Virus record (IMG/VR): IMGVR_UViG_3300009088_000002 | Coordinates: 1-49,453 of that record | Source: a virus | Strand: one strand, 5' to 3' | Length of the DNA: 49,453 bases | Shown: piece by piece, positions 10,091 through 39,029 of the stretch | How the letters are laid out: the number at the start of each line of letters is the position of its first letter | How positions within the stretch are numbered: position 1 is the stretch's first letter | Position numbers and translations under genes: made by a program | The notes under the pieces: model-generated | Databases searched by the model: none | What the model saw: only the letters and a program-made list of their open reading frames with translations | What the model was told of the DNA's origin: nothing

Positions 10091-10683
10091 GCATCAGACT
10101 CGTATGGTTGGACCTTGAGACTACCGGCCTCGACCCGCAGCGTGACGAGATTCTCGAAATCGCGTCAATCATCACAGACAAGTATTTCCAGGAACAAGAC
10201 CAGGCTCGCTTCCATAGCCTAGTGAAGCCAATAACCCATCCGTTTGAAAGCATGACCTTTGCTTCGCACCTGACCACCGGACTCTACCAAGAGGCTGTTG
10301 AATTTGGATTCAGCATCGGCGCAGTTCTCGGCGACCTGGAGGGCTTCTTCCGCAAGCAGTTGGCCTACAACGATGACATCTACCTCGCCGGGAACAATCC
10401 TCATTTCGACAAGAGCTTTCTACCAGCGGACCTGTTCAGACGGTTCTCGTATCGGCACCTGAACATGTCGGTCTTCAAAGCCTTTTCAGACCTTGGCCAT
10501 ATCCAGACGTTCTATCCCAGCACCGGCAGTACCAAGCACCGGGCCATGGGTGACTTGGAACACAGTATCGCACACGCCAAGTTCATCATGGACAATTACC
10601 TGGCCAAGGGCAAAGACTGGAAGCCACCGTTCGGAAATACCATAAAACCAAGCACTTGCGGCGAAGACCCTTCGCATCCTTGA
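10087..10683 (+). CDS. Oligoribonuclease-like DnaQ-family 3'-5' exonuclease
   Basis: Residues 7-14 read WLDLETTG, the ExoI motif with the two catalytic acids. An ExoII-like segment lies at GNNPHFDKSF. The ExoIII segment is HRAMGDLEHSI, giving a DEDDh set. The length (198) and the ETTGLDPQRDEILEIA start are very close to oligoribonuclease (Orn), which degrades 2-5 nt RNAs. It could recycle nucleotides from host RNA and also hydrolyse pGpG, a product of c-di-GMP breakdown. That is of interest given the GGDEF gene elsewhere in the window, but no link is shown. Confidence 0.88.
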   Translation: MSIRLVWLDLETTGLDPQRDEILEIASIITDKYFQEQDQARFHSLVKPITHPFESMTFASHLTTGLYQEAVEFGFSIGAVLGDLEGFFRKQLAYNDDIYLAGNNPHFDKSFLPADLFRRFSYRHLNMSVFKAFSDLGHIQTFYPSTGSTKHRAMGDLEHSIAHAKFIMDNYLAKGKDWKPPFGNTIKPSTCGEDPSHP

Positions 10684-10707
10684 CAAGTTAAAGAAGACTG
10701 AGCTAAG
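10680..10707 (+). promoter_or_regulatory. Plus-strand promoter before the DUF932 gene
   Basis: TTGACA (10680-10685) and GCTAAG (10702-10707) are separated by 16 bases. The AAAAATATT tract of the sister promoters is missing. It lies in the gap before the gene at 10748, which has its own site (AAGGAACAGACACA) before ATG. Confidence 0.55.
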
Positions 10708-10747
10708 GTCAACTCAACCTCAATCCAGAGGCCAAGGAACAGACACA

Positions 10748-11713
10748 ATGAATCGAATCCCCGGCATCGACGTTTCGGAAGCAAAGACCTCGTCTGATGC
10801 GCTGGCAATCGCCAAACTCAACTGGGAAGTAGCCACCGTACCTCTGTTCACGGCCTCGAACGGACCCGTGACCAGCCACAAGGCTATTATCCGGGTCAAC
10901 GACGGCAAGCCTCTCGGGGTCGTAGGCAAAAACTACTCCCTCGTCCAGAACGCGGACATGTTTAGCGTCGCCGACGTTCTAGCCCGCGACGAAGGCGTCA
11001 AGTTCGCCCGCGCCGGCAGCTTCGAAGATGGAAAGAAGATTTACCTGAGCCTTCAACTCCCAGGCGAAATCCGCCTTGGCAATGATGTAACCCGGAAGTA
11101 CCTCACGCTCTTCAACAGTCATGACGGAACCTCGGCTCTGTCTGGACTCATCAACGCCATCCGGTTGTTCTGCACCAACCAGCTGCCGAATCTTCTACAT
11201 AGCGGCTTCCTGCGGACAAACTCCTCGGACCGAGTGAGCATCCGCCACACCGGAGGCATGGACGAGAAACTCGACGTAGCCCGACAGACCCTTGGTCAGG
11301 CCATGGGCTTTTACAGGGCCTATGAACGAGTCGCCAATCGTCTCTACGAGACCCGATTCAGTGCTGGCAACATGCTGGCCCTGACCAAGATGCTCTTCCC
11401 TGTCGGCCCTGGTGTCGCTGAGATTCCGACCCGGACGGTCAACAATCGCCTGACGCTCCTGGACCTATTTGAAAACGGCGCCGGCCACGAGGAAACCCGT
11501 ATCCAGGGCACCGCCTGGGCAGCGCTGAACGCGGTTGCTGAATACGTGGACCACAAGCGCACGACCCGCGTCCGTCGAGGCAATCCGAACACGGTCGACG
11601 AGCAACGAACCGCAAGCGCCTGGTTCGGCACCGGTGCCCTGATGAAGCGTCACGCCTTCGACTTCATCACGTCCACGACGGGAATCGACGTCAAGCAAGT
11701 TGTCCTGAACTAA
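10748..11713 (+). CDS. DUF932 / TIGR03299 phage-plasmid protein
   Basis: Typical family features are visible: an N-terminal PLGVVGKNYSLVQN segment (about residues 56-69), then SLQLPGEIRLG, then FNSHDGTSALSGL, then IRLFCTNQLP. The family is common in phages and plasmids. It is a DNA-metabolism-associated protein of unsettled activity. The product is 321 residues, normal length. Its stop overlaps the next start as TAATG. Confidence 0.85.
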   Translation: MNRIPGIDVSEAKTSSDALAIAKLNWEVATVPLFTASNGPVTSHKAIIRVNDGKPLGVVGKNYSLVQNADMFSVADVLARDEGVKFARAGSFEDGKKIYLSLQLPGEIRLGNDVTRKYLTLFNSHDGTSALSGLINAIRLFCTNQLPNLLHSGFLRTNSSDRVSIRHTGGMDEKLDVARQTLGQAMGFYRAYERVANRLYETRFSAGNMLALTKMLFPVGPGVAEIPTRTVNNRLTLLDLFENGAGHEETRIQGTAWAALNAVAEYVDHKRTTRVRRGNPNTVDEQRTASAWFGTGALMKRHAFDFITSTTGIDVKQVVLN

Positions 11714-23362: not shown

Positions 23363-23435
23363 AGCTCGGAGAAGGATTCGAACCCTCGACAGCCGCATTA
23401 CAGGTGCGGTGTTCTGACCGCTGAACTACCCGAGC
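23363..23435 (-). tRNA. tRNA-Thr (TGT) with C at position 33
   Basis: Acceptor GCTCGGG with TCCGAGC, D-stem GTTC with GAAC, anticodon stem CCGCA with TGCGG, T-stem GAGGG with CCTTC around TTCGAAT. The anticodon loop is CCTGTAA, giving anticodon TGT, but position 33 is C where almost all tRNAs have U. It lies three bases from tRNA-Asn and overlaps the end of the endonuclease VII gene. Confidence 0.9.
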
Positions 23436-23964
23436 AAATGAGGAAAGATTTGAGATAGTCGATGGCTTTTTGGAGGAGGTCTGTAGATTCTTTGAAGCCA
23501 CCGAGAGAAGTATTGCAGGCATGACAAAGAAGACCTCTGGGCTTGCCGGTTTCATGGTCGTGGTCTACGTGAAAGTAACCATTGGTGGCTGCGCCTCCAG
23601 GTTCTTTTGTTCCGCAGATGGCACAACCATTACCTTGCTTCGATAAAGTCTCATTGTACCAATCGAGGTCGATGCCATAGTGACTTTTTAGACGGTTGTT
23701 CTTTACGTTGTCGGGATGATTTTTAATCCATTCTATATTCTTCTCAGGGTGCTCAGCATTGTATTGCTTTTGATACTCCAAAATATCCTCTCGATGCTTC
23801 TGGTAATACCTTCTATTGCTTTCAGCAACCCTCTCTGGATTCTCTAGTCGCCGCTTTGCAGCCCTCTCAGCAGCACGCTTCAAATCTTCTTCCGTTGGAG
23901 GATGTCGTTCCCTCCATCGCCTTTGTCTCTCTGCGTTTTTCTTTTTTCTTTCTTCATCTGCCAT
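23398..23964 (-). CDS. Endonuclease VII-family HNH nuclease
   Basis: The C-terminal domain has CAICG, then HVDHDHETGKPRGLLCHACN, then LGGFKES and a final helix. This is the treble-clef core of recombination endonuclease VII (Pfam Endonuclease_7), with four zinc Cys and catalytic His/Asp. The N-terminal 90 residues are a long charged helix with RRYYQKHREDI-type repeats common in homing versions. T4 gp49 resolves Holliday junctions; stand-alone copies beside tRNAs may be mobile. The last 12 or so residues are encoded inside tRNA-Thr. Confidence 0.87.
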   Translation of the reverse strand: MADEERKKKNAERQRRWRERHPPTEEDLKRAAERAAKRRLENPERVAESNRRYYQKHREDILEYQKQYNAEHPEKNIEWIKNHPDNVKNNRLKSHYGIDLDWYNETLSKQGNGCAICGTKEPGGAATNGYFHVDHDHETGKPRGLLCHACNTSLGGFKESTDLLQKAIDYLKSFLICSGSSAVRTPHL

Positions 23965-24058: not shown

Positions 24059-25450
24059 TTAGAATGCGCCTCTGAGATTGTCTACCAGAACATTCTTTCT
24101 CGGATGCATAACGGCTAGCGTTACAAACCTGAAGTGCGCTTCAGGTATACTCAGGTCCGTAACTGCAAGCTTCAGCCTAGAATACGGGGCTAACTCCTTC
24201 AAAGCCATCGTATCGCCCTGAATCAAGAAGCCGGTGACGAAACCAGGATTCTTGTTGAACAGGTCGAGGAAGGTTGTCGTCGCAGCGCCGCTGTTGGACA
24301 CACGGCCGATGAACCGCGAGGTCGCATCGTTGCCGCCGGCATTCGAACGGAACACGTTGAAGTACCGAACCACGCCGGAACCCGGAGGAGTGATGGTAAC
24401 CGTCACGCTGTCGCCAGCGGCAATGGTCACAGTCACAGAGGTCGACTTGACAGACTCACCACGCTCGTTGACAGCTGAAGCGTAGTAGTTGTAAGTACCT
24501 GCCGGAGCACTGGTGCCTTGAGCAGCGTTGTCCGTCAGCGCGATGGAAGGCGCGCCAGGCGAAGAAGACCGTGCCGTTGCCGGACGGGTCTTGCCAGAGA
24601 GGAATCGAGAAGCCTCGACGTTGACGGTTCCACCGGACACCCACTGACGCCGAAGGTCGGCGCTGGTGGCGTCCTGAGGAGCCCCGGCGAGGATGATTCG
24701 CTCTTTGCCGAACGAAATCTTGTTGTAGGCGCTGAGAACCTTCGGGTCGACGACTAACTTGTCCGCCATACCGAAGTTCATCGAGGACCGGACACTGGCG
24801 TCTTCGATGTTGTCCTGCGTCAGGGTACCGCCACCTTGGATGACCACGGTGTCGTCAGACCCAAACTCGCCGAACATCAAGTCCGTTGCGTTCCGCTGAC
24901 CGTCCGACATCCGGACCTGGGCATCCAGGCCGAGAATGTTCGGAAGACCGGGGATAGCAAGCATGGAGCCGTCGAAAAGACCCGCGTTCGAGAAGTCCGC
25001 CTTACCGCGGAAGCTGTCGAACTCGATATCGCCGGCAATTTTCTTCGCACCGTCGCTGGCTGCCCGCTCTTCGGCTTTGACGCCGTCGACCGTTGCCACG
25101 AGGTTTGCGACCACCGTCACACGACGAACATGGCTATAATAGGCCATCGGGACCACGATACGAACGTATTCGCTCATTTCCTCTTGACCGACTGCGCCTT
25201 CGTTCTGGGCGGTAGCCCCGAAGATGCCGTAGCTGAGCTGACGGTCGAATTGGGCCAAGGTACTCTTGACCGGGTCGACTTTCAGCATCTTCTGCAGCTT
25301 AATGTGGCTGTCATCGTAGGTGACGTTGTTCATCACCGGCGAGAGGTCTTCAATCTGCAATGCGGAACCCTGGACCAAAGTCGAGGGAGCTGCATTGTAG
25401 TTGCCCGCCTCTAGGGCCTTCAGCAATGCTTGGGTGACTTCACTTGCCAT
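24059..25450 (-). CDS. Major capsid protein with Ig/FN3-like insertion
   Basis: The HK97-fold assignment rests on position after the scaffold gene, length (463 residues) and typical segments: a helical N-arm, YVRIVVPMAYYSHVRRVT at about 93-110, and a P-domain-like middle with DLMFGEF. Residues about 290-400 look like an inserted FN3/Ig-like beta sandwich (YNYYASAVNERGES, VRYFNVFRS). The N-terminal 55 residues contain two elements shared with other proteins here: KALEAGNYN...ALQIED (11-35), also in the protease polyprotein, and VTYDDSHIKLQK (43-54), also at the end of the gene at 35412. This region may be a cleaved or scaffold-docking segment. A strong terminator follows. Confidence 0.82.
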   Translation of the reverse strand: MASEVTQALLKALEAGNYNAAPSTLVQGSALQIEDLSPVMNNVTYDDSHIKLQKMLKVDPVKSTLAQFDRQLSYGIFGATAQNEGAVGQEEMSEYVRIVVPMAYYSHVRRVTVVANLVATVDGVKAEERAASDGAKKIAGDIEFDSFRGKADFSNAGLFDGSMLAIPGLPNILGLDAQVRMSDGQRNATDLMFGEFGSDDTVVIQGGGTLTQDNIEDASVRSSMNFGMADKLVVDPKVLSAYNKISFGKERIILAGAPQDATSADLRRQWVSGGTVNVEASRFLSGKTRPATARSSSPGAPSIALTDNAAQGTSAPAGTYNYYASAVNERGESVKSTSVTVTIAAGDSVTVTITPPGSGVVRYFNVFRSNAGGNDATSRFIGRVSNSGAATTTFLDLFNKNPGFVTGFLIQGDTMALKELAPYSRLKLAVTDLSIPEAHFRFVTLAVMHPRKNVLVDNLRGAF

Positions 25451-27787: not shown

Positions 27788-28924
27788 TCACAAGGCTCCC
27801 TCAGAACCCGGAACTAAACTATGGACGTGATGCTGAGCCTTGCCCGGCTGATAATTGGCCTGGTGGCTGGCTTCCTTGGCCTGTTGCAGTGCTGCTTCGG
27901 CATGCTCCGGAACCATTCCGAATCCCATTGACACGCTGAGGCCATGAGTACCGCCGACAGGCGGCAGGGCTTCGAGCTTGGACCTCAGGACTCTAGAGAA
28001 ATGAGCCGCTTCCTGGTGAGTTGGCACATGGACCACGAATTCATCACCGCCGGTACGAAAGGACTTTGCTTTGGCGCGTCCGATCGCTTCATCGAGAGCT
28101 GAACGAATTGCCATCCCGATACCCCTGATGGCCTGATTACCGACTTCGTGACCGTGGGTGTCGTTGATGGACTTAAATTGGTTCCCGTCGATGTGGACGT
28201 GGATGCCCCGCCGCGGGCGACTGAGAAAATCTCGGTACGCTTTCAGATTCCCCATGACCGGAACCAAGGTGTCCTTGAATAGATGCCGGGCAATTTCCTC
28301 AGCGACGTAAGATTCGATGCGGCCATCCTTCTGGGCCTTGCGGAGTTCTTGCATGGCCCTGCCGAGGCCAGACTCGCCAACGCCGTCAAGACTCATTAGC
28401 AATGCCTCCATCTTCTGCATGGCCTGGTCTTCGTGGTCCTGGGGATAACGGATTGTGGCAACGCCCTGCGCTGCGTTCTGGAGAAGTCTCTGGACTTCCT
28501 CGGGGATAAGCTCGTGGCCATCAAGGAGGACGGTGCCATCTTCATTGACGGTGACGGTCTGAGGCGCTTCCATGCCCTGTCGATGGTACTCGAAAACATT
28601 CTCTCCCTTTGGCTGTTCGACATCTTCGAGTTTACCATGAACCATTGTCAAGTACGGCTGTAGGTCAGGATGTTCGCCCTGCTTCAGCTCTTCGAGACTG
28701 ATGAGCTGCAGGTATGGTGAATGCTCCATAGACCAGATTTTCCGCGTCGCCACGGCCGGAGGTTGCCGCTCCAAGTCCCTGAGAAAACCTACATGGTCTT
28801 CCAGGACGTCCAGTCTGCCATCATGTAGGCTGAATTTCCCGACAAGGCTTCGCTCTATCGTGTCACTTCCATCTTTGGGATGCACGGCAAAGACCAGCCA
28901 GATGTTCTCATGTTGAATGTCCAT
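27788..28924 (-). CDS. GGDEF-domain protein in the head operon
   Basis: The C-terminal domain (about 238-362) has the marks of a diguanylate cyclase: VHIDGNQFKSINDTHGHEVG with metal Asp at 246, SFRTGGDEFVVHV with intact GGDEF at 292-296, and LSVSMGFG. The inhibitory RxxD site that normally lies nine residues before GGDEF reads RAKA, so product feedback may be lost. The family makes c-di-GMP from two GTP. The N-terminal 235 residues are unrecognised and no membrane helix is seen. The ATG overlaps the polyprotein stop as TAATG, so it is co-expressed with head proteins. A degenerate or other cyclase is also possible. Confidence 0.85.
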   Translation of the reverse strand: MDIQHENIWLVFAVHPKDGSDTIERSLVGKFSLHDGRLDVLEDHVGFLRDLERQPPAVATRKIWSMEHSPYLQLISLEELKQGEHPDLQPYLTMVHGKLEDVEQPKGENVFEYHRQGMEAPQTVTVNEDGTVLLDGHELIPEEVQRLLQNAAQGVATIRYPQDHEDQAMQKMEALLMSLDGVGESGLGRAMQELRKAQKDGRIESYVAEEIARHLFKDTLVPVMGNLKAYRDFLSRPRRGIHVHIDGNQFKSINDTHGHEVGNQAIRGIGMAIRSALDEAIGRAKAKSFRTGGDEFVVHVPTHQEAAHFSRVLRSKLEALPPVGGTHGLSVSMGFGMVPEHAEAALQQAKEASHQANYQPGKAQHHVHSLVPGSEGAL

Positions 28925-31900
28925 TAGTAATCCTCGGGACCACGGTAAGCGTGTGAATTCCAGAGTTTCATCCTCGGAAGTCCGTGCTTGAATTTCTCGT
29001 CATCGTTTATTTCCTTTGCCTTCCGGAGTCTTTCCATCGTCTGTTCGATGATATGCTGCGGGGCCTGATGCCTGACCATCTCATGACGGAGAGCATCCTC
29101 GTCAATGTCTCTGATGAATTGACGGGCGCTATCGTGCACCGGAGCGCCGGTCCAATTCCGGGCAAGTTCGGTAAGCTCGTGAGGCTTCATGCTTTTGAAG
29201 TCTCTGCCCAGAAATGAATACCGCTCGATATAGTCGGGAATGTTGCCCGGGTCCTCAAAAGCATATCCATGGTCAAGGACCTTCATTCCTTTGGGCGTTA
29301 CCATCCAGTTGTGGTCATGTCGGTCTGGCACTCCCAGGATAAGGTCTTGAGCCATCAACTTGTCGAGTTCACCGCTATCACCCAATTGCTGAAGCATTGC
29401 CCGGTGTTGAGGAGAATCATGGTAATGCTCGCCGCCTTTGATTTTCTCGATGACTGCAAGTTCGTCGCCGGAATCTGGATGGTGTACCACCGAGACCGTG
29501 GGCAGGTAATTGCCGAGCTTGAAAACGTTGTGGGCTAGGTTATGAAACAATCCCTCGCGCCGTGCTTCGTTGAAAGCTTCGTGAGGCTCAGTCAGGGCCT
29601 TGCCACCCCCCGCAGGCGTATAGGCGCTCCGGTGTATGATAGAACTCCCTTTTACAAACGCCCAAGACCCAGTTGGAGCTTTCCGCCAATGAGACATTTC
29701 GCTTTGAGCCGTAGGGGCTTCCGGTCGTCTGCCTTCCTTGTTGAAATCAAGGCCGTGGACAAGCTTATGTTGTTCCGGGCGCTGATTGTACTCACCGACA
29801 CTATGACGCTGAGAATCAACAATATTTCGCAGCCGGTTCTGCTCATTCTTTTGAGCAAATTCCTGAGCGTAAGCTTTCGCCCGTTCCGGAGTACCCAATA
29901 CCGCCTTAGCCGGCGACTTAAGACCCTGTCGGTCAAAAATATTCGGGTCGCCGAAAGCCTTCCGGAGTTCAATGGTCATGGCCTCGAACTTCATCACCGG
30001 ATTCGGTTTCTTATTTAACCGGCGCTTGGCAGCCTCTAACAGCTGCGGTGCCAGGTATCGATAGTAGAGCATCATTGCCGGAACTTCGCCATATTCCTTG
30101 ACCCAAGAATGCATGGTTATGGCAGTCTTCTCGGGCAAAGACGTATCCAGGGATTCGCCTTCGTTCTTGGTCAGATGCGGAGCAATTGCTTCCCAGAAAG
30201 GTCGATGGTCGGTGGCCTCATTATGAGCCAGAGTCGACAGGCCGCGGAATTTTTCGTGAGGAGCGATGGCAACCCAATTCTTCCAAAACGCTGGGAAGAT
30301 AGCGTCTTCGTCTGATTCAAATTCCGAGCCCCAACGCGGATGCTCGCGCATGTGCTTGACGGCGTCATGGTGCTTGGCGTAATAGCGGTCGATGGCGTTC
30401 AGGACTTCACTGTTGTTCGGATTCCAGAGCAGGTCCTTGACGTAAGAAATCGTCGGATTGTCTTTGCCCTTCTCCAACCCGAACAGATACCGGCTCATGT
30501 GCGTATCCGGGACTATGACGTTTCCACCACCCATCATCCCGTACGTATACCTGGCCGTCTTGGGAGCAAGACCAGGAACCACTGGGCCTTGGTATTCGCC
30601 AGGGTCTGGAAGACCTTTATCGATGTCCCGATTTCGCTTCGAATTCCAGAGCATGGCGCGGTGTTTGTGGTCCATCAGCTCCTGGACGGCGGAGCGGGCA
30701 TCATGGCGATGGCGATTTACCAATTCCACAAGACCTTGGTGGAGAGTATGGTACTTCTCCATGTTCTTGAACTTATTGTTCGCCAACATGAAGCTGCTGA
30801 TATCCCCGGCCTTGCGGTTAGTGAGCTTCGAGTCTCTCTTATTCCGGAGTTCTTCTTGGAGCCGTTCGAAATGGCTGCGGCCATGCTCTGGGAACACTGA
30901 CGGATTGTCTCGACCTAGCCAATCCTGACGGATGTTCGAAAATTCGGAATGTCGAGGGTCCAGGCCCGTGTGCTTCATCGAATCCACAAGATGACCGTAC
31001 ATCAATTCCTGCACCGGCACCGGAGTATTAGGGCTGAGCTGGGAGAAGAGAACTCCGTGCATAATGACTTCCTCGGGGAGTTTCCCTTCTTTCAGAAGCT
31101 TATGAACCTGGGCCCAGTTCTCAGTAGCATAATCGTGAAACTTGCTGAGTTTGGGGTCATTGAGGATATTGTGGAAAGCTTCACCAGCGCCCTTGTTCTC
31201 TTTATCCCGAGAGGGGATATACATCGGAAAGCTGCCCTTTGGGGTATGCAGAATTCCGGCTTTCTCGTCGAAATGAGGTTGCTTGATTTGAGGATTCGGC
31301 TGCACGGGTTTGCCGCGGATGGTGGCTTGCTCAGTCTCGGCCTTGCCACTTTCTACCCATTTCTTAAATGACGGGGCTTGACTGCCACGGCTACCAGGCT
31401 TTCGAGGTTCACCTTCCTTCTTGTAAAGTTTCCATTCCCCAGAATTATGATGCTGAGAAGCAAGTTCTTTGGCATTCTCAAGAGTGGAGGCTTTAGCAGA
31501 TGACCTTAGAGAGTCGTGCCCTTTTTTGTAATACTGGACGTCAAAACCTCCCGATTGGTGTGGCAATACGTGGTATTCTCCATGACGGGCTCCGGCAGAA
31601 TGTACTTTTGTTTCCCCAGCCCATGATTGCTTTCCGGCAGTCCAGTTCAATGATTCTTTTTCGGCTTTCTGAAGAGTTTCCCCAGGAGCCTCACCATACT
31701 TACTTCCGACCCGGGCGTCAGTCAGCTTCCGGACAAAGTCGATGTCGTCTTGGTGCTTTTCTTCCCACTGAGGCCAATGGTCTTCGCAGAACCAGACCCT
31801 GGCCATGCCTTCAGCCCACCGGGCCTCGTATCTGGGCGGCTTTGAGCATTCCATGCACTTGGAAAAAGATTCCTGAGCCTTCCTGAGCTTCATCGTGTAA

Positions 31901-32772
31901 TTATCGACGAGGTTCGAGAATCGGTCGATGAAATCGTCACTGGCCTCTGGGAGCTTGTGCTTCAGGACCTCACGAAACGGCGTCTTCCGGTCCCAGTCCC
32001 TAAGTGCTGCCCGGGCCTGATTGCGGAGATGAGCCAGGTGCAGACTTCGGTCTTCGACTTGAAGGGCAGCGCCGCCGGTCATAGCCGAAGGAGCCACGTT
32101 ATAGTTCCCGGCTTCAAGAGCCTTCCGGACGGATTCAACTTTGGCCAATGCCCGCTGGAGGACATCACCATCCAGAACCGGATTGAACTGTAACTCAGAG
32201 CCGCCGAGTCGAGTGTAATTAGGGTGCTCGTTAAGCTTCAGGCTGTCATCTGGTTTCTGTTTGAAGCCCTTCGGGGCGTTGGGGTCTTCCACGACGCCGA
32301 CAACGCAGGATTTGTTACAGGGCTTGACCGTCAGAGCCGCCTTCCGACACACGGTCCTGAGCAGTCTCTTGTCTTTGGATTCGAGCGTTGAACCCTCGAT
32401 GGAAAAGCCGACGATGATGGGCTCGTCATTGGCCAGGTAGTCGCGAATCTGAGCGGCCAGAGCTACTGCATTCGGATGACCGGAACCGTCAAAGAGGCGC
32501 CCGATGCCGTAAATCAACGGCAACCTGACCTTATGATAGAACTCAAGCTCCCGGTCGTTGTCGCAGTCTTTCTCGGAAAATATTTTCTTGGCGTAGATTA
32601 TTTTCCCAACAATGTCCTGACTGCCCTGGTCTCCGTTGTGTTCCCAGTTGAGAATACCTTTGCCCTCAACAAGGTCGGAAATGTCTGCGCCTTTGATGTC
32701 GAGGATTTCACCGGAGCTGTCAATGGCCTCGGACGCGAGGACGCCGTCAAGTACCATTCCTGTAGACGCCAT
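28924..32772 (-). CDS. Prohead protease fused to glycosylase-like and kinase-like domains, 1282 aa
   Basis: Residues 1-165 resemble phage prohead serine proteases: NWEHNGDQGSQDIVGKI with likely catalytic His45, and VGFSIEGS with likely Ser124. At 217-241, KALEAGNYN...ALQVED repeats the capsid N-terminus and may be a cleavage or docking site. Residues 306-332 (CMEC...CEDH) may bind zinc. About 570-810 look like an HhH-GPD DNA glycosylase: SQLSPNTPV at 578, the hairpin PGLAPKTA at 733-740 and VPDTHMSRYL with the candidate catalytic Asp756. About 1070-1190 resemble a PI3K/HipA-type kinase: GVPDRHDHNW at 1147-1156 and VLDHGYAF with Asp1167. Protease fusions this long suggest a multi-domain protein packaged in the head. 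Confidence 0.8.
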   Translation of the reverse strand: MASTGMVLDGVLASEAIDSSGEILDIKGADISDLVEGKGILNWEHNGDQGSQDIVGKIIYAKKIFSEKDCDNDRELEFYHKVRLPLIYGIGRLFDGSGHPNAVALAAQIRDYLANDEPIIVGFSIEGSTLESKDKRLLRTVCRKAALTVKPCNKSCVVGVVEDPNAPKGFKQKPDDSLKLNEHPNYTRLGGSELQFNPVLDGDVLQRALAKVESVRKALEAGNYNVAPSAMTGGAALQVEDRSLHLAHLRNQARAALRDWDRKTPFREVLKHKLPEASDDFIDRFSNLVDNYTMKLRKAQESFSKCMECSKPPRYEARWAEGMARVWFCEDHWPQWEEKHQDDIDFVRKLTDARVGSKYGEAPGETLQKAEKESLNWTAGKQSWAGETKVHSAGARHGEYHVLPHQSGGFDVQYYKKGHDSLRSSAKASTLENAKELASQHHNSGEWKLYKKEGEPRKPGSRGSQAPSFKKWVESGKAETEQATIRGKPVQPNPQIKQPHFDEKAGILHTPKGSFPMYIPSRDKENKGAGEAFHNILNDPKLSKFHDYATENWAQVHKLLKEGKLPEEVIMHGVLFSQLSPNTPVPVQELMYGHLVDSMKHTGLDPRHSEFSNIRQDWLGRDNPSVFPEHGRSHFERLQEELRNKRDSKLTNRKAGDISSFMLANNKFKNMEKYHTLHQGLVELVNRHRHDARSAVQELMDHKHRAMLWNSKRNRDIDKGLPDPGEYQGPVVPGLAPKTARYTYGMMGGGNVIVPDTHMSRYLFGLEKGKDNPTISYVKDLLWNPNNSEVLNAIDRYYAKHHDAVKHMREHPRWGSEFESDEDAIFPAFWKNWVAIAPHEKFRGLSTLAHNEATDHRPFWEAIAPHLTKNEGESLDTSLPEKTAITMHSWVKEYGEVPAMMLYYRYLAPQLLEAAKRRLNKKPNPVMKFEAMTIELRKAFGDPNIFDRQGLKSPAKAVLGTPERAKAYAQEFAQKNEQNRLRNIVDSQRHSVGEYNQRPEQHKLVHGLDFNKEGRRPEAPTAQSEMSHWRKAPTGSWAFVKGSSIIHRSAYTPAGGGKALTEPHEAFNEARREGLFHNLAHNVFKLGNYLPTVSVVHHPDSGDELAVIEKIKGGEHYHDSPQHRAMLQQLGDSGELDKLMAQDLILGVPDRHDHNWMVTPKGMKVLDHGYAFEDPGNIPDYIERYSFLGRDFKSMKPHELTELARNWTGAPVHDSARQFIRDIDEDALRHEMVRHQAPQHIIEQTMERLRKAKEINDDEKFKHGLPRMKLWNSHAYRGPEDY

Positions 32773-32883: not shown

Positions 32884-34713
32884 TTAGATGGAGTCGTATC
32901 CGCCGATGGTCACAGACTCAAGGGTAGTCAAGCCACCAGCTGCCGCAAACTGAAGGGTCATGCTCGTTGCCGCAGAACCGACGATATTCAAACCAGTGAT
33001 GTCGATGGCTCGAACATCGCCCACTGGAGCTGTCAAGTATTGACTCCACACAATCGCAGCACCGTCCAAGAGGTTCACCAAGATTGCGGCGCCAGCCGTC
33101 GCGCCAGCGGCGAAGCTTGCTGAAATCGAGTTGCAAACGTGCCGGACACCGGCAGCACCAGCAGCCTTAATCGCAGACGCCTGAGTATTAGCCGCAGGGG
33201 TACTGACAACAGTCCAGTTACCTGGAGTCGTAGTCAGTTCAGAACCGGTAGCGCTTTGAGCCGCAAGAGTAGCAGCAGAACCGCTACGGCCACGGTCAAA
33301 CGTTGCACCGTTCCAAAGAGCCGGGTTCTCCATGACAACGTTCTGGCCGCTGACCGCATCCTGGGTCGCAGAACGCTCCAGGTAGAAGAGGTTGGACACG
33401 GGGTCCCAGAGTGCCTCTTCTGCGATGGCGATACCAGTTGCCAGGAATCCGGCGATGCCCGGGCCTTTATTGACATAAATATCCCAAGCTGCAGCGACGC
33501 CGTTAGCGTGGGTGGCGACAGTCGGAGAAGCAAGAGGAACTGCCGTCGCAGTCAGTGGCAGAGTTGCCGTAGTAGCAACGTAGACAACTTCTTCGTTTGC
33601 CAGGCCCTGTTCGATGATAATCGGAGAACCAGGCATCAAGCCAACAACCGCAGCCAGGTTCAAGGACGTAGAACCAACGGCCAGAGTACCGGCCTGGGCC
33701 AGAGTAGAGGTTCCTCGACCTTTGCCCTGAAGATTGCGGGCTCGGTCATACCCTAACTGACTGGGTGTAACAGCGCCAGTCAACAGAGGACCGCCACTAT
33801 TGAACAAGTATTCTGTGGCAACCGCTGTACCGACGCCGGTTGCACCATCTTGTTCACCGGCGGCGCTTCGTTCGCTTTCCCATCCACCGGCACCGGTATT
33901 CAAGGTACCATTGAAAAGGAATGTTGCGCCGGCCGCAAAGCCTTGACCGGTAGAACCATCCGGGGCCGTGGCATCACGAGCTTGATTATACGCAGCTGTG
34001 GTCACAGCACCGTTATTCAAGTGACTGTTCAAGAAGATACCGGTCACTCGGGCAGGGCCGGTTGCGACCGCGGTAACAACCACGGCCTCAGCTGCAGCCA
34101 GGCCCGGCTCCACTAAGAGCACAGTCCCGGGTTGGATATTCCAGGCAGCGCCACGGTTCGTACCGCTGATAGCTGAGACGTTGACAGTCTGAGAAGCCAC
34201 GTTGCCGGTTACCACCTGAGCCAAAGTGATGGAAATCGGCGAAGCCAGTTGCTGAGACCCAGAGGCGATGCCAGCCGCCGGGGCATTATCAGTCCCGGTT
34301 TCACGCTGACGGTCAACACGACCACCGGCGTTCAGGAGCTGAGCCACGCCACCGGTGTTCAAACCGAAAGACGAAGCGCCGAGGGCCTGATTGTCAGCGT
34401 TGTGGAATTGGAAGACGTTGGCAATGTTGCCGGTAGCGTCCGTCAACTTTGTCGGCCAGCCGTTAGCCGCCACCGCGTTCGGAGCGCCTTGCTGCACGAG
34501 CTGAGCCAAAGTTGTACTAGGAATGAGTCGGACCGCGAGACCCATTTCGGTTCCCGTCAATGCGGCTGTCGAGGAAGCAATAGCACTACCGCTTCCGGAA
34601 TCGACAAGGGCAATACCTTGAGCTTCAACAGGGGTGCCGCCGACAGTGTTAAGAAAGGTCTGGACCGCTTTACCGGTACTATCGGGTGCGACCTTGACGA
34701 AATCGTTTGCCAT
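32884..34713 (-). CDS. Probable virion surface or fibre-like protein, 609 aa
   Basis: Ala/Gly/Thr/Ser-rich, nearly no Cys, beta-rich, as in phage decoration or fibre proteins. Two internal units look alike: GTVLLVEPGLAAAEAVVV near residue 200 and GSPIIIEQGLANEEVVYV near residue 370. The last 100 residues look like a compact beta domain that could be a receptor- or capsid-binding head. It lies between the 174-residue fibre-like gene and a terminator. Exact virion place is unknown. Confidence 0.68.
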   Translation of the reverse strand: MANDFVKVAPDSTGKAVQTFLNTVGGTPVEAQGIALVDSGSGSAIASSTAALTGTEMGLAVRLIPSTTLAQLVQQGAPNAVAANGWPTKLTDATGNIANVFQFHNADNQALGASSFGLNTGGVAQLLNAGGRVDRQRETGTDNAPAAGIASGSQQLASPISITLAQVVTGNVASQTVNVSAISGTNRGAAWNIQPGTVLLVEPGLAAAEAVVVTAVATGPARVTGIFLNSHLNNGAVTTAAYNQARDATAPDGSTGQGFAAGATFLFNGTLNTGAGGWESERSAAGEQDGATGVGTAVATEYLFNSGGPLLTGAVTPSQLGYDRARNLQGKGRGTSTLAQAGTLAVGSTSLNLAAVVGLMPGSPIIIEQGLANEEVVYVATTATLPLTATAVPLASPTVATHANGVAAAWDIYVNKGPGIAGFLATGIAIAEEALWDPVSNLFYLERSATQDAVSGQNVVMENPALWNGATFDRGRSGSAATLAAQSATGSELTTTPGNWTVVSTPAANTQASAIKAAGAAGVRHVCNSISASFAAGATAGAAILVNLLDGAAIVWSQYLTAPVGDVRAIDITGLNIVGSAATSMTLQFAAAGGLTTLESVTIGGYDSI

Positions 34714-35411: not shown

Positions 35412-35867
35412 ATGGGCACCAGCTACTCTAGCGCCGCAGCGGAAACCCTCCGGAAATGGACCGCGGCTTGTCTGATTTCCACCAAGAGCCAAAATACCTA
35501 CACGGTCAAAGGTAAGGCCTATTTCTGGGAATCCAGTAACCGTGAGCACGACGACGGAGCCATAACCGGCAGCGTCTACCGGGTGACTGAGACCCGAAGC
35601 GATGGCCGGGAAATGGTTCGACCAGCCGGAGCCTTTCGAATCAATGGCGATGGCGCCGTGGCGCTGGCGCCGAAATTCCTCCGCGATGCAGCCGAAAGCC
35701 GAGTCGTGGTCAACGGCGACTTCCTTGACGGGACTATTTCTGTAGAGGAAGGGGTTTCTACCTGGTCGAGGAAGCTTCCGGATATCAACGTCGATGGGGC
35801 CGGCGAGAACGTTCTCGACGTCACCTACGACGAAAGTCACGTCAAAATGCAGAAAGCTACCATCTAA
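35412..35867 (+). CDS. Plus-strand protein ending in a capsid-like motif, 151 aa
   Basis: Transcribed against the surrounding head genes. The body (about 20-130) looks like a small beta-rich domain and is unrecognised. The last 15 residues (DVTYDESHVKMQKATI) match the major capsid protein's VTYDDSHIKLQK at residues 43-54. The codons match at most positions. A C-terminal motif shared with the capsid N-arm could target this protein to the shell or its scaffold. AAAGGAG lies seven bases before ATG. Confidence 0.72.
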   Translation: MGTSYSSAAAETLRKWTAACLISTKSQNTYTVKGKAYFWESSNREHDDGAITGSVYRVTETRSDGREMVRPAGAFRINGDGAVALAPKFLRDAAESRVVVNGDFLDGTISVEEGVSTWSRKLPDINVDGAGENVLDVTYDESHVKMQKATI

Positions 35868-36818: not shown

Positions 36819-39029
36819 CTATTTCCTCGGCAGATGTTTCAGCGCGATATCGGTGATTTCCTTCAGCGTGTCCTGGCTATCTTTTTCCCAGGCTTCAAGG
36901 GCGCTGGTCACCAGCTTCCGTTGTTGAGCTATCAGGCGTCGTTTGGAAGGAGGCAATTGGTTTTCGCTCTTGCTAAGGAGTCCAATCATTTGGTCGATGG
37001 ACCGAGTCAGGTCCTGACCTTGGTCACCAGCAGATTGGTCAGAGCCGCCTTGTTCGCCCTGTTCCTTGACCTGCTCGCGGTCTGCTCCATGCTGCTCACG
37101 ACTCTTCGCCGGTCCACCATCACCACCACTATCCGAAGGGGGGCCTTCTTGTCCAGGCAGTGGCTGACCTTGAGCTGCGGCTTGCTTAGCCTGCTCGGCT
37201 TGCTGTTGCAGCTGCTGTTGCTGCATGAGATTCTGAACCTGCGTGAAATAGAACGGGTCCCGGAGATACGCATAGAGAGGGTCTTTGCTGGCGCCTGGGA
37301 CTTCAAAAAATTCCTCCATGATGACGCCCACGGGCACATACTTGTCAAGGACAGCCTGCCATTGAGGATTGAGGATAAACTTGCCGCCAAATTTCTTCCC
37401 AAGCGGCTTCTTCTCGACGCGCTCCAGAACATCGTCCATGGTCATGTGAATGCCCATGTCCTGCTGGAGTCTAATGGCTTCCTTTTCGGCAGTATCTACG
37501 TCGAGGCCAATGAACTTGATGGTACAAATCTTCGCCAGTTCCTCGTCAATCAGCGGGAAGATTCGGCTGTTAATAAAGTTCTGGAACTGGCCCACTAGGG
37601 GTCTGATGCCAACGTCACGGTGGGCTTCGAGCTTGTATTCGTTATTACTTTCTGAGAGAGCCTGATTGTTGGTACCACGACTCAGGTGTGCGTAGCCCGG
37701 GAGTTCCTCAGGACTCATCTGGAACGCAGAGAGAATAACCCGGGCATTCGTATCAGAAAGATACTGGAATTCCATGTCGCGGCTACTGTTGTCGATTGGA
37801 TACCAGCCAATCTCATCATCGCTGCCGACGCCAAAGATGGGCATACGCCATGCGTTGGCAACACTGTTGATGCTGGCGTTGAACTGCTGCCGAATCTTGG
37901 AGATAACTCCCTCGTCGACGTCATCCGACTTGATGACAATCATGCCACGGGCTGCGCGACCGGATTGGAAATAGAGCTTATTATGGTTCGTGATATTGAT
38001 ATGGGTCGTGACCGCAGCAATCATCGTGTCGATTGGCGTCAACGGATACCCGTCAAGTTCAACGTCAGAGACCGGATAGAAGTTGTGGACTAAGCATTCA
38101 TCAGGAGTGAAAGCCTGCACCGGACGACCGTGAACAACTTGGACCCAGGCGTATTCGTCATTCGCGAACTTCTCCGGCTCCAGTTTTCGGTTCTTGAGTT
38201 GCTCCAACAGCTTTCGAGCTTCTTGGCGGACGCTTTCCACTGCTTCCCTTTGGGGCGAAGCTTGGTAGATAGTACCGGCGTCGATGGGCCTGAAAGAATG
38301 GAATTCCCTATTACCATCCATGGTCTTCTTGAAAATGATTTCCGTTGCCGTCCGACCGAAGATGACCGCATTGCGGGCAGAGATGAACAGAAACTGATTG
38401 AAGGTCAGGGCCTCTTTGTCAGACCAGCCGGTGGTGCTACCGCAATTCAGGAGCCTCAATTCGGCCTTACGAATCTTCTCCTGGAGTTTTTTCTTCTCTT
38501 CCTTGTCCAACTTCTCCATATACCCGGGCTCAGCTTCAATCTTGAATCCGGTTCCGAAGCGGTCTGGCTGTGGACGTCCGAAGACAGCTACCTGGTTGCA
38601 GCGGGCGTTGGCAATAGACGCCACAAGGTCGTCTTGGATACTGATTCGCTTCAGGATGTCATCGGGCAGGAGCCGAAGCTTTACCCGGTAGACACTCTGG
38701 TAAATGTTGTGTTGGCTGGGGTCTGTCTCAAAGGCCAACCGCTCAATGCTGACCTTGCCTGGTCCGTTGAGGACGTTAAGAACCGACTTCACAAGAGGAC
38801 TGGAACTTGCTACTTTCTTATTCAGTTCCTCTTCGAGCTTCTTAAATTCCGCTGCCTCCAGGACGTTGAGGGTATCGTCAAAGGAAGGGTAATTCATCAT
38901 CATCTGGATGTTGCCGCTGCCCTTTTTTACAGACTTAGCCACCTTGGTCGGCCGATTGCTGACAACAGTCTCGATGAGGCTTTTAGCGAACGGTGAGAGG
39001 TCCGCTTCTATGGAAGTCTTTTTGGCCAT
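36819..39029 (-). CDS. Portal protein
   Basis: The 736-residue length, position between large terminase and MuF, and internal landmarks (AWRMPIFGVG, then MEFQYLSDTNARVILSAFQMSPEELPGY near the middle) fit the SPP1/HK97-type portal class. A Gln/Gly-rich disordered stretch lies at about 600-680 with a helical tail. It forms the dodecameric ring through which DNA enters and leaves. A 41-base piece is nearly duplicated in the gene at 19887. Confidence 0.9.
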   Translation of the reverse strand: MAKKTSIEADLSPFAKSLIETVVSNRPTKVAKSVKKGSGNIQMMMNYPSFDDTLNVLEAAEFKKLEEELNKKVASSSPLVKSVLNVLNGPGKVSIERLAFETDPSQHNIYQSVYRVKLRLLPDDILKRISIQDDLVASIANARCNQVAVFGRPQPDRFGTGFKIEAEPGYMEKLDKEEKKKLQEKIRKAELRLLNCGSTTGWSDKEALTFNQFLFISARNAVIFGRTATEIIFKKTMDGNREFHSFRPIDAGTIYQASPQREAVESVRQEARKLLEQLKNRKLEPEKFANDEYAWVQVVHGRPVQAFTPDECLVHNFYPVSDVELDGYPLTPIDTMIAAVTTHINITNHNKLYFQSGRAARGMIVIKSDDVDEGVISKIRQQFNASINSVANAWRMPIFGVGSDDEIGWYPIDNSSRDMEFQYLSDTNARVILSAFQMSPEELPGYAHLSRGTNNQALSESNNEYKLEAHRDVGIRPLVGQFQNFINSRIFPLIDEELAKICTIKFIGLDVDTAEKEAIRLQQDMGIHMTMDDVLERVEKKPLGKKFGGKFILNPQWQAVLDKYVPVGVIMEEFFEVPGASKDPLYAYLRDPFYFTQVQNLMQQQQLQQQAEQAKQAAAQGQPLPGQEGPPSDSGGDGGPAKSREQHGADREQVKEQGEQGGSDQSAGDQGQDLTRSIDQMIGLLSKSENQLPPSKRRLIAQQRKLVTSALEAWEKDSQDTLKEITDIALKHLPRK

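Follow-up and report, generated by a model that had tools for sequence, protein, structure and literature searches.

A SPO1-type prohead protease extended by glycosylase-like and kinase-fold domains behind a capsid-like pro-segment: a possible cargo slot of the phage head

Described systems and the present locus

The protease gp245 of Salmonella phage SPN3US loses its C-terminal propeptide through self-cleavage after an A-X-E motif, and the authors proposed that this propeptide directs the protease into the prohead core (available parts of PMC10052503 and PMC7411985). A similar design is predicted for a gene of IMG/VR virus record IMGVR_UViG_3300009088_000002, whose 49,453 bases, taken whole, are called the window here. 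Its product of 1282 amino acids (aa) begins with a prohead protease domain and has a C-terminal propeptide predicted to be cut after Glu. As far as those sources describe it, the gp245 propeptide differs in having 64 residues and the motif A-X-E instead of A-L-x-x-E. The reading preferred here, given a probability of about 0.6 as a whole chain of steps, is that the cleavable C-terminal pro-segment of the protease is an exchangeable cargo slot whose freed enzymes are retained in the head and delivered to the next host.

SPO1 gp3.2 and the SPO1-group proteases resemble the window protein in their protease domain, in the position of the gene between the portal gene and the scaffold and major capsid protein (MCP) genes, and in an MCP-like pro-segment which lies near their C-terminus and is followed by a short tail. 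Unlike the window protein, SPO1 gp3.2 stops after this short tail (256 aa) and is devoid of enzyme modules.

The polyvalent proteins of Iyer et al. 2017 (PMC5512222, available parts) are large multi-domain phage proteins for which injection together with the DNA is predicted. The window protein likewise joins several unrelated enzyme-type domains in one chain encoded next to virion genes, and GGDEF, kinase, GNAT and ParB-like domains occur in the polyvalent class as covered there. It departs from that set in having a prohead protease as its N-terminal carrier, together with an MCP-type motif. In the available text of that study assemblin-like peptidases are always found at C-termini, the word glycosylase occurs 0 times, and the kinases are of another type that lacks the C-terminal subdomain.

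The T4 proteins Alt and IPI-III lie inside the head, are processed by the prohead protease and leave with the DNA on ejection; they have N-terminal capsid-targeting sequences, whereas the putative cargo described here is part of the protease chain (PMC7411985, available parts). No T4-type N-terminal capsid-targeting sequence was found in the window protein, whose N-terminus is the protease and whose motif is internal.

A literature search for prohead proteases with a kinase, a glycosylase or injected head proteins, outside of which most subscription journals lay, returned no title on such a fusion and no paper on Myxococcus phage Mx1. The first-pass annotation of the window, made from its letters, had known of no described protein with this domain order; this agrees with the titles searched but not with GenBank, where the same order is already present in Mx1. 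As no title on a protease fusion was found, the carrier and its release device look new; the delivery theme is known from the polyvalent proteins (PMC5512222, available parts).

The gene and its protease domain

28924..32772, minus strand: whole gene, prohead protease with putative C-terminal cargo, 1282 aa (frame and homologue searches)
32263..32772, minus strand: prohead protease domain, residues 1-170, with His45 and Ser124 (A4 and SPO1 alignments, tblastn to the SPO1 group, weak PHROG match)

The gene is a single ATG-started frame of 1282 codons; the plus strand of the same interval, in the same register, is interrupted by stops. An identical protein (100% identity) is encoded by another virus contig of 164,871 bases. 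Four full-length homologues align to the 1282-aa protein with 43-52% identity, three of them in virus contigs and one in Mx1 (GenBank OR576727.2, 169,621 bases), where the product is named just 'putative prohead protease'. A chance open reading frame (ORF) is ruled out by these homologues, and the frame is real. The whole chain had no match in NCBIfam or among PDB sequence profiles.

Residues 7-204 match by tblastn the head maturation proteases of 18 SPO1-group Bacillus phages (E 4e-5 to 8e-4), and a weak match to the PHROG head maturation protease was also found (E 0.0013). His45 and Ser124 do not vary among the 12 sequences of alignment A4 (window's included), and both align with SPO1 gp3.2. 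Homology assigns residues 1-170 to the SPO1-type prohead proteases; a prohead protease domain with these two residues had been named in the first-pass annotation. Membership in Peptidase_S78 was rejected because its profile (PF04586) gave zero matches in 7 records, Mx1 among them, and the protein was grouped with SPO1 gp3.2 by homology instead. PDB sequence profiles found no match to the protease part.

A segment shared by the protease and the major capsid protein

32050..32130, minus strand: MCP-like pro-segment motif, residues 215-241, predicted cut after Glu240 (ALQVE/D, the slash marking the cut; motif and profile comparisons)
24059..25450, minus strand: MCP (phrog_752, E 9e-49; family search)
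25346..25426, minus strand: matching pro-segment in the N-terminal arm of the MCP, residues 9-35, predicted cut after Glu34 (ALQIE/D; motif and profile comparisons)

The predicted folds, the motif shared by MCP and protease, its conservation pattern and the exchange of modules behind it were computed here. When the protein was searched against its own record, residues 212-244 matched the N-terminus of its own MCP (E 7.7e-7); the motif of the protease is VRKALEAGNYNVAPSAMTGGAALQVED and that of the MCP LLKALEAGNYNAAPSTLVQGSALQIED. A profile made of 35 MCP arms only was searched against 6285 ORFs (stop to stop, >=60 aa) of the loci. At E<=1e-3 it yielded 44 non-MCP rows, 43 of which belong to protease chains, among them that of Mx1 and one protein counted twice, and the remaining one to a 161-aa ORF. 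A whole-MCP profile built without protease rows found 24 protease rows and one other non-MCP row. With a matrix derived from the 35 arms, 50 of 54 protease chains scored above all 270 shuffled controls, two short rows (L056 and L069) having been left out of this test. SPO1 has a diverged matched pair of its own, LDKSLEAGYEVDPEKMEGGDVFRKES in gp3.2 and LNKALEAGHTVNPLDLEGGGAFRVES in the MCP. Chance and recent duplication as origins of the match were rejected on the basis of the matrix scores and of the SPO1 pair. The shared segment has the features expected if a single protease recognises both proteins.

In the 50 passing chains P5 is Ala in 49, P4 is Leu in all and P1 is Glu in 48. Their entropy is 0.28 bit at P1 and 2.4-3.5 bits at P1' to P10'; the matrix covers the motif through P1', so that conservation there is partly due to selection, which does not apply to the drop behind P1'. 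Entropy of the MCP at P1' to P10' is 0.2-1.4 bits, except for one position at 2.5. Conservation in the protease chains thus appears to fall just behind the Glu, as at a protease site. The length of the shared stretch (~27 residues) exceeds that of a usual protease recognition site, which would suit a docking segment shared with the MCP, the protease never being cut from the cargo and the chain working or being discarded whole. This alternative is rather unlikely, as conservation stops at the P1 Glu in the protease whereas it continues in the MCP, and as gp245 of SPN3US sheds its C-terminal propeptide by cutting at a motif used on other head proteins (available parts of PMC10052503 and PMC7411985).

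Two small ORFs carry sequences related to the capsid arm. At 35412-35867 of the window (plus strand), the C-terminus of a 151-aa ORF, VTYDESHVKMQK, copies the MCP stretch a short way behind the predicted cut (VTYDDSHIKLQK). This ORF is present in 2 of 8 records, the window's and a near-identical contig, and is a possible capsid-arm mimic. A second possible mimic is a 161-aa ORF at L028:1018-1503 (virus contig 3300012363_000001, ~10517-11002), whose EGSALQIEDLCPIMECVTF copies the capsid arm, cut site included.

The glycosylase-like domain

29938..31323, minus strand: OGG2-like HhH-GPD region, residues 484-945, with Lys738 and Asp756 (AlphaFold2, VIA-align, conservation)

An AlphaFold2 model of residues 484-945, computed with 10 sequences, reached a predicted local distance difference test (pLDDT) of 74 and a predicted template modelling score (pTM) of 0.71. 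Among 733 chains aligned to it by VIA-align, the first was MjOgg (3fhf; Z 10.2, root mean square deviation 3.4, 182 aligned), followed by 3knt_A (Z 9.8) and TmOgg (3n0u_A; Z 9.5). Endonuclease III ranked fourth (Z 4.5) and unrelated proteins had Z values of 3.9 or less. The motif PGLAPKTA at residues 733-740 holds the hairpin Lys738 and VPDTH holds Asp756; the former is kept in 27 and the latter in all 28 of the chains covering the column (window's included). The two residues are 18 positions apart, like the hairpin Lys and the Asp of endonuclease III. The region is read here, from the model, as an HhH-GPD fold with a glycosylase/lyase-like active site.

The predicted fold and the Lys/Asp pair are thus like those of the OGG2 glycosylases MjOgg and TmOgg, from which the region differs in having no sequence-profile match and, in one scan of cellular genomes (125 pattern matches), no cellular relative. 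Ogg-HhH (PF22175) had no match in 10 records, though it was detected in 7 of 14 control genomes, and HhH-GPD (PF00730), detected in 14 of 14, gave one match, outside the gene (E 0.02). Pfam searches with 11 members of the region gave a best E of 0.035, which is chance level, and PDB sequence profiles a single chance match (E 0.9). Plain Foldseek returned nothing at E<=0.001, with TmOgg at rank 50 only. Because sequence profiles and plain Foldseek were silent, the glycosylase call rests on one middling-confidence model (pLDDT 74) and the Lys/Asp motif. Because neither curated profile recognised the gene, OGG2 family membership was rejected and the region was filed as 'fold and active-site like'.

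The same silence is what would be expected if residues 484-945 were merely a helical domain with a chance resemblance to HhH-GPD, and VIA-align warns that Z values under ~13 can be common for helical models. Such a coincidence is very improbable: the three best of the 733 chains are all OGG2 glycosylases and the fourth is endonuclease III, the lead of the OGG2 chains over unrelated rows is 5-6 Z units, and the Lys and Asp have the endonuclease III-like spacing.

Inteins or intein-like inserts occur within the glycosylase-like domain of L025, L026, L041 and L045, at two conserved spots (SPN/TPVP and ELMY/HLVD). Intein family profiles score L025 over the cut-off and L026 and L041 weakly, the insert of L045 having been recognised by eye with no such match. 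The terminase and gp7-like genes of L003 (47-2731 and 5766-7766) also appear, by eye, to bear inteins.

The kinase domain

28978..29817, minus strand: PI4KII/CtkA-like kinase domain, residues 986-1265 (AlphaFold2, Foldseek, fold alignment, sequence profiles)

The AlphaFold2 model of residues 980-1270, computed with 24 sequences, has a pLDDT of 84.8 and a pTM of 0.85. Structurally it is closest to PI4KII (Z 17.3 over 246 residues), followed by CtkA (Z 13.4), ATM and HipT (Z 11.6-11.9, HipT 11.6). Foldseek returned 25 matches at E<=0.001, most of them to PI3K and PI4KII and some to CK2. Seven of eight members reach E<=1 with Pfam PI3_PI4_kinase, the lowest value being 8e-8 and that of the window copy 2e-5. 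An early 8-row alignment had no match among PDB sequence profiles, and the 24-row alignment agrees with them around the catalytic loop, best with PI4KA (6e-5). The window domain carries Lys1041 and, in the motifs GVPDRHDHNW and VLDHG, Asp1150, Asn1155 and Asp1167; the metal-binding Asp1167 is kept in 25 of 25 chains covering the column.

Residues 986-1265 are therefore assigned, on the predicted model, a PI4KII/CtkA/HipT-like kinase fold. Because the window copy stays below the gathering score of PF00454 (22.8 and 25 bits vs 27.1), the domain is filed as kinase-fold and not as a member of that family. It resembles PI4KII, CtkA and HipA/HipT-type kinases in its fold and its DRHxxN and DHG motifs, and differs from them in being fused to a prohead protease and in the degeneration of several relatives. 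The first-pass annotation had taken PGLAPKTA and VPDTH for an HhH-GPD block and GVPDRHDHNW with VLDHG for a PI3K/HipA-type kinase, and had named a lack of structural matches in either part as evidence against itself. Both calls are borne out at the level of predicted folds, by OGG2 and PI4KII respectively, the kinase also by the sequence profile.

Near its capsid genes Mx1 encodes the kinase domain once more, as a separate copy (E 2e-46; L007, 28782-30707). This copy adjoins a 1480-aa protein annotated as NUDIX hydrolase and is possibly further head cargo. In L025 (13254-15287) the cargo frame overlaps by ~19 bases with a different frame, which encodes the kinase and the last portion of the glycosylase-like part; this is possibly a split gene or a frame change.

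Exchange of C-terminal modules

Ninety distinct chains, designated by L numbers with L030 as that of the window, were compared; 74 are complete and 16 are ended by a contig end. They come from three scans. The first two contributed 12 and 62 loci; the third gave the best 80 of 155, with 39 taken as new and the other 41 on contigs already in the set. Duplicates by the first 1000 or 300 residues were dropped, and L048 replaced the cut copy L047. Modules were called at E<=1e-4 with profiles trained on members of the same 90-chain set.

Eighteen chains have the glycosylase-like domain and the kinase, 10 have the glycosylase-like domain and GGDEF in one chain, 8 the glycosylase-like domain only, 22 the kinase only and one GGDEF only, while 5 are cut and unclassified. 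This amounts to 36 glycosylase-like domains, 40 kinases and 11 fused GGDEF domains, with kinase and fused GGDEF together in 0 of 51 chains. A loose motif pattern was found in 80 of the 90 chains. Of the 56 with both motif and module, 53 have the motif ahead of the module start (exceptions L067, L103 and L133).

Other domains occur as well. ParB-like inserts in L041 and L044 and a GNAT-like insert in L064 score below the cut-off, and DUF6321 is present in L044, L083, L148 and L157. The C-terminal domain of L073, which as a whole matched 201 records, matches phage proteins with various annotations: 'large polyvalent protein' for one, and lysin, RelA/SpoT or hypothetical for others. HExxH-like motifs in L163, L164 and L165 look zincin-like by eye; Pfam found nothing in them and they were not counted.

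On a tree of the protease domain the glycosylase-like module changes at least 7 times, the kinase at least 10 and GGDEF at least 6. All labels together need 19 changes against a shuffled mean of 46. The tree is a quick one of 92 rows with 29 of 87 inner branches open and long branches for SPO1 and L147, and these counts are minima. From these tree counts the modules are judged to be inherited yet also exchanged.

The GGDEF gene

27788..28924, minus strand: GGDEF (diguanylate-cyclase type) gene, its start overlapping the stop of the protease gene in TAATG (Pfam GGDEF 1.5e-15)

GGDEF is fused to the cargo chain in related phages, and it is a separate gene in at least 20 of 56 loci (window's included), contig ends making this count a lower bound. 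These fusions suggest that the GGDEF cyclase encoded downstream in the window belongs with the cargo domains.

The position in a late operon, the mere TAATG coupling of the GGDEF gene in the window phage and its occurrence as a separate downstream gene elsewhere are also what would be seen if the cargo acted in the phage-producing cell, before or without packaging, and the fusion merely coupled its expression with late genes. This is unlikely, given that a prohead protease must enter the prohead to work, so that parts joined to it are carried along, and that, within a single chain, the modules follow a motif of cleavage type.

Proposed mechanism and points against it

In the cargo-slot reading, the whole chain would be built into the forming prohead as one piece. 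The protease would then cut itself after Glu240 (ALQVE/D), a site of the same type as that of MCP trimming (ALQIE34/D). The cut would free a fragment of 1042 residues, ~120 kDa, with the glycosylase-like and kinase domains, which would be too large to exit the head, remain with the DNA and reach the next host. Precedent from the systems described above is what suggests the cut after Glu240, the entry into the prohead, the retention of the fragment and its ejection. The first-pass annotation had proposed that the glycosylase- and kinase-like parts may be sealed in the head, be injected and attack modified host or rival DNA or alter host proteins; its packaging idea gains indirect support from the MCP-like motif, which it had not noticed.

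We infer enzyme activity and targets for the cargo domains. The HhH-GPD domain would most likely act on base-damaged or modified DNA, a first guess being that it repairs oxidised guanine of the entering phage DNA; that the kinase phosphorylates proteins of the next host is likewise a guess. For a sizeable group of SPO1-related phages there is an even chance that the self-cleaving pro-segment of the prohead protease is a general, exchangeable loading platform, a capsid 'secretion signal' by which domains attached behind ALxxE are carried in, freed and delivered to the next host. In the window phage these would be the glycosylase-like and kinase domains, with cyclic-dinucleotide signalling probably provided by the next gene.

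If so, ALxxE behind a prohead protease would be a simple rule for finding proteins delivered with phage DNA. Candidate early effectors would include kinase, glycosylase-like, cyclase, ParB-like, GNAT-like and other modules. A base-excision-type domain and a cyclic-dinucleotide enzyme would be present at phage entry, where host defences act, and a route would be offered to loading chosen proteins into laboratory phage heads.

Several observations weigh against the cargo-slot reading, beside the silent profiles of the glycosylase-like region and the selection inherent in the motif matrix. The motif does not exceed the controls in L025, L026, L070 and L083 (4 of 54 chains), and no carrier signal was recognised on the separate GGDEF genes (20 of 56 loci). 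Seven of the 74 complete chains have a short tail only (284-319 aa), and 19 longer complete chains have other C-termini, mostly unassignable. Because the catalytic Asp (Asp1150), kept in 20 of 25 chains, is lost in 5 and the ATP-binding Lys in 4 of 28, some relatives' kinases may be inactive. No virion proteomics or cleavage data were found for any cargo-bearing member.

The losses of the catalytic Asp, the wide variation in chain length and the DNA-binding property of HhH folds would all be accommodated if the C-terminal domains only helped to build the prohead core, as scaffold-like elements or DNA-binding spacers, and had no enzyme role after assembly. That is quite improbable in view of the retention of the glycosylase-type Lys (27 of 28) and Asp (28 of 28), and of swaps for unrelated domains including GGDEF, which would hardly be allowed for a fixed structural part.

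Neighbouring genes and other features

31879..32025, minus strand: conserved tail segment behind the motif, residues 250-298 (RDWDRKTPFRE..LPEASDDFIDRF; alignment with relatives)
31333..31875, minus strand: residues 300-480, with a Cys/His patch (306-332) and a weak DUF2188-like part (family search and alignment)
36819..39029, minus strand: portal protein, upstream context (family searches)

The conserved tail segment is also the end of the short relative L053. The DUF2188-like part of the following stretch is below the cut-off (E 0.067), and the patch consists of Cys306, Cys309, Cys329 and His332. The patch noted in the first-pass annotation is therefore present, but the stretch of ~300-480 is not common to the four other full-length relatives aligned; as the patch is missing from these, it was rejected as a component of the system and does not belong to a common design.

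The protease gene is placed between portal and MCP, as in SPO1. Its upstream neighbours encode the portal and a minor-head-like protein, and downstream follow the GGDEF gene, a 151-aa ORF, a scaffold-like gene and the MCP gene. The scaffold gene is named from its position, family searches with it having given no match. Family searches also had no match for a 609-aa protein whose gene, at 32884-34713 (minus strand), is flanked by those of the minor head protein and the protease. The ORF at 23398-23964 (minus strand), which adjoins the capsid gene, resembles by eye a homing endonuclease of the recombination-endonuclease VII type.

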